A stretch of DNA of 38,346 nt, from positions 1 to 38,346 of the forward strand of contig JAAVIE010000136.1 in assembly GCA_014799325.1 (NCBI GenBank), in the 5' to 3' direction. Both the position numbers and the translations under genes were made by a program. Each line of letters begins with the position of its first letter. Within the stretch, counting starts at the first letter, position 1. The notes beneath the pieces are model-generated. The model worked only from the letters and a program-made list of their open reading frames with translations, was not told the origin of the DNA and ran no database searches. Positions 1 through 38,346 of the stretch are shown piece by piece. The DNA comes from Oscillospiraceae bacterium. GTDB taxonomy: Bacteria; Bacillota; Clostridia; Oscillospirales; Ruminococcaceae.

Positions 1-310
1 AATCCGAACTCAGTTAGAGCAGCTTGCTGCGTGTACTTCTCGGCTTGCCGAGAAGTACCTAATAGTTCAAGATTTAAATTTGCCCAGTTTTTCAAGCAAA
101 TTTAAATCTTGACGGTTTTGAAATTCTTTTTAAATCAGTAAATTACCACCAACTGCCTTGAGAGAACCTAAATTACCGCCAACTTTCCTTGAAAGCGACC
201 TCTATTTGCACCTCTTTCTGAAAAGCGGGCATATATCAGCACAACTTTTCTGAGAGAACCGCAAATCTGCATAGGCTTCTTAAGAGCATAAAATTTAGCA
301 GCACACAATT
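1..310 (-). repeat. Modular hairpin element copy 1 (reverse orientation, truncated by window start) plus flanking degenerate ~30-nt units
   Basis: Hairpins GTACTTCTCGGC-TT-GCCGAGAAGTAC (33-58) and CAAGATTTAAATTTG-N14-CAAATTTAAATCTTG (68-111); end motif GGTTTTGAAATTCTTTTTAAATCAGTAAATTACC shared with other copies. Confidence 0.85.
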
Positions 311-929: not shown

Positions 930-1168
930 CTCCCAGAAAAGTTGTGGTGATTTATGGCTCTCAGGAAAGTTGGCGGTAATTTACTGATTTAAAAAGAATT
1001 TCAAAACCAGAAACTTTTTAAATTTACTTGAAAAAATGGGTAAATTTAAAAAGTTTCTTATCTAACTGAGTTCGGCTTTTTTGCTTGAAAAGCTGGGCAA
1101 AAAATCCGAACTCAGTTGATTTTTGAAATTCGTGCTATCAATGCAGTTGTGCTAGTGGAAATCCGCTA
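930..1168 (+). repeat. Modular hairpin element copy 2 (forward)
   Basis: Outer stem 996-1006/1121-1131; hairpins 1010-1027/1040-1057 (18 bp) and 1064-1084/1097-1117. Confidence 0.9.
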
Positions 1169-4140: not shown

Positions 4141-4350
4141 AATTCCTTCAAAAAAGTTGGCAATAATTACCTGATTTAAAAAGAATTTCAGAACCGCAAA
4201 CTTTTTAAAATTGCAAGCAATTTTAAAAAGTTTGCTATCCGACCGAGTTTGCGCTTTTTGCTTGGAAAAATGGGCAAAAATCACAAACTCAGTCGATTTC
4301 TGAAATTCGTGCTCTCAAAACAGTTGTGCTATCGGATATCCGCTTTCAGA
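4141..4350 (+). repeat. Modular hairpin element copy 3 (forward, diverged)
   Basis: Outer stem GAATTTCAGAA (4183-4193)/TTCTGAAATTC (4298-4308); hairpins 4196-4214/4217-4235 (19 bp) and 4241-4261/4274-4294. Confidence 0.88.
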
Positions 4351-4430: not shown

Positions 4431-6764
4431 ATGAACAAGAACAGATGCGTAGTAACAGGCTTAGGACTTATCTGCGCCTTGGGCGACAACGTTGACGAAT
4501 GCTGGGAAAATGCCGTCAGCGGTATTTCGGGCATTCGCGATGTTACAAGCATAAGCACCGAAAACTGTTACGCTAAAAAAGGCGCGGTAAACGATACTGC
4601 CGACAGCGAGCTTTCCGGGGAGAACTATGACCGTTCCTCTCTGCTGTGCATTAAGGCGGCAGAGGAGGCTTTGAATGACGCGGGGATCTCTCCCGAAAAC
4701 GATAGCGGTATCGGCGTTATCGTGGGTAACTGCGTAGGCGGCGCGGCAAGTATTGACAGCTATTACAGAGCGGTCAAGGAGTGGGGAGACGAAAATGTTT
4801 CCAAGGAGGAAATATTGAAGATGCCTGCTTCCGCTATCGCCAACAATGTTTCCGCTCATTACGGATTGAAAGGGCTTACCGCCAATATCGTCAACGCCTG
4901 CGCGGCGGGAACTATCAGCCTTGGCTACGCCTGTGACCTTATCAGGAACGGAGAAGCGGAGGTGTTCCTTGCAGGAGGCTCCGACGCTTTCACTTCCCTT
5001 GCCTTTGCGGGATTTCACGCCCTTCATGCTCTGGACGAGCACCCTTGCTCTCCCTTTAACCACAGCAGCGGTATCACTTTGGGCGAGGGCGCAGGAATGC
5101 TTGTTATCGAAAGCTATGAACACGCTGTTCAGAGAGGGGCTAAGATATATTGTGAGATCTTGGGTTCGGGCGTAAGCTCGGACGCGCACCATATTACCGC
5201 TCCCCGTCCCGACGGCGAGGGACAGATGAGCGCGATAAAGAGAGCTATGGCAAGCTCGGGTGTCAAGCCCGAGGATATTGACTATATCAATGCTCACGGC
5301 ACAGGCACCGCAAAGAATGACGAGGCTGAGTTTTTGTCGCTCCATACGCTTTTTGACTGCTCCGATAAGCTGTCCGTAAGCTCTACCAAATCTATGACAG
5401 GACACTGTCTGGGCGCGGCGGGGTCTATCGAGGCGGTGTTTACGGTAAAGGCGCTTAAAGAGGGCGTGATTCCTCCCACAATAGGATATACTGTGGAGGA
5501 TAAGGCAGTTTTGGAGGAAAAGGCAGGGAAGATCGACTTTATGCCCAACGAGAGCAAGGAGAAGGAGCTTTCCTTTGCTATGTCCAATTCCTTTGCTTTT
5601 GGGGGAAATAATGCAAGTATAATTTTCGCCAAGGAGCCTAAAGAAATTCCCGAAATGCGTAAAGATTCTCCTATCTATATTACGGGTCTGGGAATTGTCA
5701 GCAGTAATGCGGACGGTTCGGCTTCTGTCAAGGCGGCGCTTAGCGCCGAGGACTACAAGGCGCATGATATAAAAATGGCGTTTTACAGGAAGCTTGACAG
5801 ATTCAGTCAGTTACAGCTGGTGAGCGGTGTCAGGGCGCTCGCTGATGCGGGCTTTAAAGCCGATGAGAGCAACGAGAATGATATTGGTATTATAATAGGT
5901 ACATCTGACGGACCTTTGACCGAGATCGTCAATTTCCAGAAAAATGTTATTGATAACGGTACTAACGGGGGCAGTGCTTTTTCGTTCCCTAATACCGTTT
6001 ATAATGCGGCAGGGGGTTATTTCTCCATTTTTGCAGGAATAAAGGGCTATAATGTTACTGTGGCTAACGGCGCACAGTCGGGATTGCAGAGCGTTTGCTA
6101 TGCTTATGACGTTATTCGGAGCAAGGAAGAAAGCGTTATGGTGGCAGCAGGTACCGATGAGAACACCGACGTTACCGAGTATTTGTATAACAAGTACGGC
6201 GTTGTGGCTGAAAATGCGCCTTACAGCGGCGGCGAGGGCTTTGTGCTGGGCGAGGGATCGGTTTCGGTTGTTTTGGAGTCGGGGGAGTATGCGGATAAGC
6301 ATGATTCCAAGAAGTACGCCCAAGTTGTGAGCTGTGGAATGGCGCATTGCCCTAAGGAATACTCCGATCCGAAGGTGGATCTTGATACTGTGAAGAAGGC
6401 TGTGGGTGACGCTTGCAAGAAGGCGGGCATTTTCCTTGAACAGATAGATTTTGTCAGCGGCTTCGGCTGCGGACTTAAAGAGATCGACGACGGCGAGTTG
6501 GAGGTTTACCGCGAGTTGTTTGGTGTTAACAAGCCTGTGCTGTCCGTTAAGGCGGCTACGGGTGACGCAAGGGCGGCTTCTGCGGCTATGCAGCTGGCTC
6601 AGGCAGCTAAGGTTCTGCACGGTGACAGTGATGTTTCGGGTAAGTGGTTCAGGATCACCGAGAACGGCGCAGAGCCTGCCGAGGCTGTCAGGGGCGAATA
6701 TGCCCTTGCTGTTAGCTGCGGCGCGGGGGGTTCCTGCTCGGCGGTTATTATTAAAAAGGTTTAA
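4431..6764 (+). CDS. Fused tandem beta-ketoacyl-ACP synthase (active KS + degenerate KS/CLF-like domain)
   Basis: First domain: NACAAGT, NAHGTGTAKND, STKSMTGHCLGAAGS. Second domain: SPIYITGLGIVSS..., VANGAQSGLQ, SGFGCGLKEIDDGE, SVKAATGDARAAS. ATG at 4431 with AAGGAG. Confidence 0.9.
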   Translation: MNKNRCVVTGLGLICALGDNVDECWENAVSGISGIRDVTSISTENCYAKKGAVNDTADSELSGENYDRSSLLCIKAAEEALNDAGISPENDSGIGVIVGNCVGGAASIDSYYRAVKEWGDENVSKEEILKMPASAIANNVSAHYGLKGLTANIVNACAAGTISLGYACDLIRNGEAEVFLAGGSDAFTSLAFAGFHALHALDEHPCSPFNHSSGITLGEGAGMLVIESYEHAVQRGAKIYCEILGSGVSSDAHHITAPRPDGEGQMSAIKRAMASSGVKPEDIDYINAHGTGTAKNDEAEFLSLHTLFDCSDKLSVSSTKSMTGHCLGAAGSIEAVFTVKALKEGVIPPTIGYTVEDKAVLEEKAGKIDFMPNESKEKELSFAMSNSFAFGGNNASIIFAKEPKEIPEMRKDSPIYITGLGIVSSNADGSASVKAALSAEDYKAHDIKMAFYRKLDRFSQLQLVSGVRALADAGFKADESNENDIGIIIGTSDGPLTEIVNFQKNVIDNGTNGGSAFSFPNTVYNAAGGYFSIFAGIKGYNVTVANGAQSGLQSVCYAYDVIRSKEESVMVAAGTDENTDVTEYLYNKYGVVAENAPYSGGEGFVLGEGSVSVVLESGEYADKHDSKKYAQVVSCGMAHCPKEYSDPKVDLDTVKKAVGDACKKAGIFLEQIDFVSGFGCGLKEIDDGELEVYRELFGVNKPVLSVKAATGDARAASAAMQLAQAAKVLHGDSDVSGKWFRITENGAEPAEAVRGEYALAVSCGAGGSCSAVIIKKV

Positions 6765-6923
6765 GGGAACCTCTAACCCCCTGTGAGCAAAAACGAACAG
6801 GGCGCACCGTCTACTGCGTCGATCCTCCTCGACAGGCGCCTGGTCTGCCTTCGTCGGATTTCCTTGTGTCCGGCGCACCCTGTCTGTTTTTGCTTTTCAC
6901 AAGTTTTTTAGAGGCACCCTTAA
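6761..6923. mobile_element. MITE-like inverted-repeat element
   Basis: TTAAGGG...CCCTTAA ends; imperfect ~50-nt inverted arms 6761-6809 and 6871-6923; possible TA target duplication. Confidence 0.6.
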
Positions 6924-6946
6924 GATTTTTCGACAGGAGAAGCTTT

Positions 6947-10951: not shown

Positions 10952-10961
10952 AGCAGGCTGC

Positions 10962-11000
10962 AGATTAGCACAACTGCACTGACAGCACGAATTTCAAATT
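10962..11000 (-). repeat. Modular hairpin element copy 4 (single end, reverse)
   Basis: TTAGCACAACTGCACTGACAGCACGAATTTCAAA matches the right end of other copies. Confidence 0.6.
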
Positions 11001-23321: not shown

Positions 23322-23448
23322 AGCTTTCCTCTCTTTTTAACTTCTTTTTTGTTATTTTATCATATAATTGCACAAATGAAAAGGGGAAATTTACACAATA
23401 ATATTGTTTGGATTTTTGCGCTTTTTCAGATTTTGTATAAATAAAAAA

Positions 23449-23784
23449 GGGGCTGCAAAAAAACGATCCCTATGTTTTTGCCAAGGTTCCTGAAAGAATC
23501 GTAAAAATCAGCATAACACCTCTAAAAGCGGGTTTCCACTCGCACAACTTTTCTGACAGCACGAATTTCAAAAATCAACTGAGTTCGGATTTTTTGCCCA
23601 GTTTTTCAAGCAAAAAAGCCGAACTCAGTTAGATAAGAAACTTTTTAAAATTGCCCAGTTTTACAAGCAATTTTAAAAAGTTTCTGGTTTTGAAATTCTT
23701 TTAAAATCAGTAAATTACTGCCAACTTTCCTTAAAAGCGGGTTTCCACTCGCACAGCTTTCTTGGGAGCTGTTTTTTTACAGCC
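23449..23784 (-). repeat. Modular hairpin element copy 5 (reverse, complete)
   Basis: Outer stem 23563-23573/23688-23698; hairpins 23577-23597/23610-23630 and 23637-23654/23667-23684. Confidence 0.92.
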
Positions 23785-23801
23785 CCGCAGCTGCTCATTC
23801 C

Positions 23802-27639: not shown

Positions 27640-28015
27640 TTTTTATTCTCTCAAAAAACTTGGTGATGATTTTGGTTCTCTCAAAAACCCGGTGCGAAAA
27701 TATGTCCGCTCTCAAGGAAAGTTGGCGGTAATTTACTGATTTAAAAAGAATTTCAAAATTCCGAAAATGAAACGCCGGAGGCGTTTCATTTCTCGGAACC
27801 AGGCAAAATTTTCGGAGAAAATTTTGGACTTCCGCAGGAAGTCATAGGCTTCTTTTGAAATTCGTGCTATCAGGGCAGTTGTGGGAATGGAAGCCCTCTC
27901 TTAGAGAGGTTGCTCTATTAGATGTCCACATTTTAAAACTTGTGCTGTCAAGGCAGATGTGCTAACGCAGCCCGCCCTTAAGGAAACAAGTGATAATCTT
28001 TCACCGTTCATAGGA
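27640..28015 (+). repeat. Modular hairpin element copy 6 (forward) carrying a different set of internal hairpins
   Basis: Outer stem 27748-27758/27853-27863; hairpins 27759-27798, 27804-27826, 27827-27843, each with a 3-nt loop. Confidence 0.9.
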
Positions 28016-38177: not shown

Positions 38178-38346
38178 TGTGCAGCTTTCTTGGGAGAGTC
38201 GTAAAAATTAGCTCAACATCTCTAAGAGCATGTCATATTTAGCTTGACTGTTCTGACAGCACAAGTTTTAAAACGCGGACTCCCAATAGCACTACTTCTC
38301 TGATAGCACGAATTTAAAAAAGTCGCAGAATTTCCTATGGAAATTC
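38178..38346 (-). repeat. Modular hairpin element copy 7 (reverse, truncated by window end)
   Basis: Degenerate ~30-nt units, GATAGCACGAATTT end, and hairpin GAATTTCC-TAT-GGAAATTC (38328-38346). Confidence 0.75.

Follow-up and report, generated by a model that had tools for sequence, protein, structure and literature searches.

A modular palindromic repeat of Oscillospiraceae, probably BOX/MITE-like, with hairpins exchanged in a conserved frame

Introduction

BOX elements of Streptococcus pneumoniae and S. suis are short, intergenic, modular and strongly folding repeats with a density of about 0.05 per kb, which cluster with other repeats, insert into one another and are confined to few related species (PMC3049150). 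S. suis has two BOX families with common inner modules, and boxB occurs within different outer modules (PMC3049150). The Oscillospiraceae repeat described here resembles BOX in all the former respects (161 in 2.64 Mb), although the likeness to the boxA-boxB(n)-boxC modules of pneumococcal BOX is architectural only and no sequence relation is claimed. Unlike S. suis BOX, it has a fixed outer frame in which inner hairpins are swapped, several of its class A hairpins share an apical loop, and no target-site duplication could be defined. With MITEs it shares an AT-rich composition (30% GC versus 45% for the window, the whole stretch of 38,346 nucleotides analysed), an 11-bp inverted repeat, extensive base pairing and an intergenic, non-coding location, and with both MITE and BOX repeats it shares many dispersed intergenic copies that are absent from orthologous sites in relatives. 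It differs from MITEs in having conserved sequence beyond the inverted repeat, and neither a parent insertion sequence nor a target-site duplication was found.

High-copy extragenic palindromes arranged in mosaics are also typical of REP/BIME sequences (PMC2817692, PMC3733652); the present elements are larger (about 135 bp or more, with several hairpins), lack a GTAG/CGTC tag, and three of four carrier genomes, all three incomplete, yielded no Y1 transposase. Paired changes in the two arms, together with small loops that become inverted, are shared with hairpins maintained by template switching, which were described from rRNA, microRNA and yeast coding sequences and not from a dispersed modular repeat (PMC8794818, PMC8604942). 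Integron attC sites fold with extrahelical bases and belong to gene-cassette arrays with IntI; the stems here are near perfect and the genes near the elements ordinary (aspartokinase-like, ketoacyl synthase, HlyD-like). A search of the open-licence literature retrieved no earlier description of this repeat family, which is new to the sources searched and specific to a clade of Oscillospiraceae.

Results

Architecture of the element

An earlier note on this DNA had reported nearly the same loop on three different stems. This was confirmed, as CCAGTTTTTCAA caps three distinct, nearly perfect stems (68-111, 23577-23630 and 23637-23684) and recurs inverted at about 991-1139, where the reversed loop noticed on the other strand (TTGAAAAGCTGG) belongs to an element in opposite orientation. 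The core of the loop, a 16-mer, lies far above chance, with 7 window matches at ≤3 mismatches versus 0.83 in shuffles (0 of 100 shuffles reached 7) and 87 genome matches at ≤2 mismatches versus 9 for a reversed-pattern control (2.64 Mb). The hairpins at 23577-23684, termed HP1 and HP2, are the two inner arms of a single element rather than free hairpins, and the gap drawn in the first stem proved to be one A/G mismatch. The element of about 135 bp forms a three-way junction consisting of the outer stem GAATTTCAAAA/TTTTGAAATTC, HP1, the spacer GATA, HP2 and a final GG (Table 1). Folding of the 156-nt element was strong both as DNA (z = -11.3) and as RNA of the other strand (z = -10.1).

The 11-bp outer inverted repeat was paired in 25 of 25 copies, 10 of its 11 pairs being invariant among them, but it is not established as terminal because conserved sequence continues outside it. 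The modules that flank the outer stem, CACAACTTTTCTGATAGCAC to its left and TTTTTAAATCAGTAAATTACCGCCAACTTTCC to its right, are parts of degenerate tandem arrays of about 30 bp. An exact boundary or target-site duplication is not definable, since the flanks are repeated modules and the intergenic DNA of relatives is too diverged to align. In the flanks of numerous copies, for example at 23445-23500 and 23753-23800 of the window, the element arrays often abut terminator-like palindromes, GGGGCTGTAAAAA...TTTTTACAGCCCC. At 6766-6930 the window contains another, different intergenic repeat that folds strongly (z = -6.0), with about 20 matches in the related genome G061 and a few in two further relatives, G092 and G016.

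Table 1. Repeat elements and their parts in the window
Position	Strand	Feature	Details
1..126	+	Truncated class A element at contig start	HP1 3' arm 1-15; mid insert GCAGCTTGCTGC..GTACTTCTCGGCTTGCCGAGAAGTAC; HP2 68-111, loop 84-95; right outer arm 116-126
991..1139	-	Complete class A element	HP1 loop CCAGCTTTTCAA; HP2 loop CCATTTTTTCAA
4178..4316	-	Complete class A element	12-nt loop lost from HP2 (TTGCTTGCAA)
10954..10998	+	Isolated left half-frame	AGCACAACTGCACTGACAGCACGAATTTCAAA
23523..23560	+	Left flanking module	TAAAAGCGGGTTTCCACTCGCACAACTTTTCTGACAGC; common to most copies, often tandem
23555..23703	+	Complete class A element	Outer stem, HP1, HP2; R1 score 174.2 bits
23563..23573	+	Left outer arm, terminal-inverted-repeat-like	GAATTTCAAAA; pairs with 23688-23698
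23577..23630	+	HP1	20-bp stem, one A/G mismatch; loop CCAGTTTTTCAA at 23598-23609
23636..23685	+	HP2	19-bp perfect stem; loop CCAGTTTTACAA at 23655-23666
23688..23698	+	Right outer arm	TTTTGAAATTC; sequence and pairing with left outer arm
23699..23769	+	Right flanking modules	TTTTAAAATCAGTAAATTACTGCCAACTTTCC... and second GCGGGTTTCCACTCGCAC unit
27747..27868	-	Class B element	Outer frame as in class A; three unrelated hairpins, triloops TGC, TCC, TCC
38305..38346	+	Class B element, left part	Cut by contig end

One frame with interchangeable cargo

The outer frame, with the layout GATAGCAC-GAATTTCAAA ... TTTTGAAATTC-TTTTTAAATCAG, was found about 161 times as left frames in the 2.64 Mb of the source genome (G000), and at least 43 of these carry the HP1-GATA-HP2 cargo. 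The frames are intergenic and never lie inside a long ORF, and of those between tandem genes 15 run with and 13 against the genes. Among 94 frames examined, the loop was present in 45 and missing from 49, which is no unbiased proportion because the loop was one of the criteria for picking regions. Most loopless frames carry class B hairpins, for example GGACAAAATTTTC-NNN-GAAAATTTTGTCC and TTCCGAAAATGAAGCTC...GAGCTTCATTTTCGGAA, in exactly the frame of class A. Optional modules comprise HP0, in which the loop is reversed, a mid insert bearing CTTG loops, a class B insert, and HP3, which grows from the HP2 loop in four copies and has a similar loop (ACAGYTTTAAAA). Since two unrelated cargo classes occupy one frame, optional slots exist and all four combinations of HP1 and HP2 alleles are present (10, 7, 7 and 1), the exchange of hairpin modules suggested earlier is well supported.

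Copy counts of the elements are lower bounds, because many contigs of the draft assembly end in or beside elements (C25, C37, C41, C58, C62, C64, and positions 1 and 38346 of the window). At L161 (G000 C91:5800-7500) and L218 (G092), there are tandem half-elements whose junction lies at or near a hairpin apex, as well as tandem duplications of the right half, which suggests breakage or slippage at the centre of the palindrome. Where a C-G pair closes a class B triloop, the triloop mostly reads GNA or its complement TNC, N being variable (22 of 31; e.g. L123, L131, L133 and window 27747-27868), which recalls the DNA GNA triloop, a very stable structure. Class B copies of G092 use an AAG triloop, so this pattern is not universal.

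Conservation of loops, stems and frame

Loop conservation with stem replacement, as put forward in the earlier note, was observed between HP1 and HP2, whose loops are 81% and stems 38% identical in a comparison that favours the loop, as the copies were selected by loop similarity. The phenomenon of different stems below the same loop is thus mostly that of two fixed positions, HP1 versus HP2. Within a hairpin type the loop is only slightly ahead, so the loops come partly close to the divergence of the stems that would speak against the claim: in 25 aligned elements, identity was 96-98% for the frame, 90% for the spacer, 86% for the loops and 77-82% for the stems. A recognition site is therefore more likely to reside in the outer inverted repeat and its flanks, the most sequence-constrained part. 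In relatives compared with the G000 consensus, loops were 64-93% and stems 45-78% identical; the HP2 loop had no advantage over the stem in two of four comparisons, as in G061 (loop 64-71%, stem 72-78%). The 12-nt loop is missing from HP2 in several copies. Where present at HP1 and HP2, its orientation is fixed (64 of 64, never inverted). Concerted evolution of the HP1 and HP2 loops within one element was not seen (0.829 versus 0.837 between elements).

Covariation of the stems

Two-sided changes affected 21 of 50 stem pairs in 25 copies, in which 99.6% of cells remained paired. Two-sided changed cells numbered 131 versus 9 one-sided ones, with far lower values in shuffled and slid controls; as the copies are related and not independent, p-values from these stem and loop statistics are only indicative. 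Over all stems, distinct mismatches were few and symmetric (8 G-T, 6 A-C), and a strand-specific folding considered from G-U pairs in A1 did not hold over this set. Small loops occur in both orientations: CTTG 7 and CAAG 2 times in the mid insert, 7 versus 1 in loopless HP2, and reverse-complement triloops on the same stems in class B (GAA/TTC, GGA/TCC, AAC/GTT, GCA/TGC). Homogenisation of arms together with inversion of the spacer has been published as the signature of template switching (PMC8604942; PMC8794818). Because the stems covary almost perfectly, with few G-T intermediates and on either strand with respect to genes, palindrome upkeep at the DNA level by template switching fits better than an RNA function.

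Distribution and mobility

Of 71 genomes of the genus, 4 gave convincing family matches (E<1e-8), with at least 43 in G000, 10 in G061, 22 in G092 and 1 in G016, all lower bounds because 43 candidates were scored per genome; a fifth genome gave one marginal match. The class A elements of G061 and G092 are diverged, G092 also has many of class B, and similar loops, often with the core TTTTTCAAG, sit on different stems in all three relatives. At two sites of the window, relatives keep the flanking genes without the element (gaps of 67-158 bp versus 291-347 bp): the orthologous genes of G016 and G061 lack the element of 991..1139 between them, and those of G061 and G092 lack that of 4178..4316. 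Phage and plasmid records contained no family match, and viral contigs gave 0 matches. An exact 20-mer loop scan of GTDB returned 23 matches, all but one (L082, a G016 record) attributed to chance because their stems extend only 0-2 bp beyond the pattern; loop matches in other genomes of the genus were likewise chance, with stems of ≤3 bp in those checked. Class A hairpin stems at L049/L180 (G016 C199, about 6040-6205) and L178 (G092 C99 contig end) contain an insertion of a second palindromic element of about 160 bp that is unrelated to the family (ACTTGTTC..CTATTGGAACATGTTC), with an apparent TTAGA duplication in G016 and a related piece in L039 of G000.

No transposase-sized insert indicating an autonomous copy was seen in any both-armed frame among the 94 examined, and no clade-specific transposase was found for the family.

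Discussion

We consider the family, with a probability of about 0.6, a BOX/MITE-like, non-autonomous modular palindromic repeat in which hairpins are swapped within a fixed frame and maintained by template switching. Such a repeat would have spread through the intergenic regions of one small clade, the outer frame likely being the part recognised by whatever copies the element, while slots in the frame would hold interchangeable hairpins, HP0, HP1, HP2 and HP3 in class A and others in class B. During replication, template switching would copy one arm onto the other, and mainly for this reason the stems would stay palindromic while their sequence changes; the same process may invert small loops and drive duplication, loss and reassortment of modules. 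The 12-nt loop, which a partner arm cannot correct and which should hence diverge at an ordinary rate, would mark the common descent of class A hairpins, possibly with some constraint; the conserved tip is most simply explained by common descent and modest constraint. Simple template switching predicts the fixed orientation of this loop only if inversion is rare among long loops or if orientation is of importance. Moreover, structural selection combined with exchange of whole modules can also produce paired changes in stems.

The fixed orientation counts in favour of the proposal that a hairpin-binding protein or recombinase, acting on DNA or RNA, recognises the 12-nt loop, which would then keep its sequence and orientation while the stems need only pair. 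All 64 loops share one orientation, as against 14 in each orientation among class B triloops (Fisher p = 3e-9) and 14 versus 3 among CTTG loops (p = 0.008), values that treat copies as independent and are confounded by loop length. The identity of loops between HP1 and HP2 and the similar loops on different stems in the three relatives agree with this proposal, and a loop recognised by a protein is possible. Nevertheless, roughly half of the examined frames are loopless yet dispersed, HP2 has lost the loop in several copies, the frame is more conserved, the loop exceeds the stem little within a hairpin type and not at all in HP2 of G061, and no protein or recombinase recognising the loop was identified; we therefore regard this reading as rather doubtful. 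It appears still less probable that a hypothetical enzyme recognises the CCAGYTTTTCAA tip on single-stranded DNA and swaps or adds stems as a combinatorial hairpin-exchange system, in which case the outgrowth of HP3 from the HP2 loop would represent an intermediate stage. A structured RNA, either a regulatory RNA or a 3'-end stabiliser or terminator selected for its three-way junction, would account for the strong fold and the covariation, and in A1 all one-sided changes that keep a standard pair are G-U. Such a function is nonetheless unlikely, as orientation to tandem genes is unbiased, mismatch types are symmetric over all stems, Rfam gave 0 gathering-score matches in the window, terminator-like matches lie only in the right flank and not on the element itself, and totally different cargo occupies the same frame. 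Dispersed intergenic palindromes would also be expected of REP/BIME-type repeats mobilised by a RAYT or an IS200/IS605-like Y1 transposase, and G000 has two partial matches to PF01797 (Y1 transposase), at least one of them at a contig edge. This origin seems very improbable, as PF01797 had no match in the carriers G061, G092 and G016 (genomes 76-86% complete) and is present in many relatives without the repeat family, and neither strand of the A1 consensus contains the GTAG or CGTC tags of the REP superfamilies (PMC3733652).

In practical terms, assembly contigs repeatedly end inside these elements. With roughly a hundred copies, a single genome also supplies natural replicates for studying how a palindrome can remain perfect although its sequence changes, and the relative parts of template switching and selection in palindrome upkeep are a live question.
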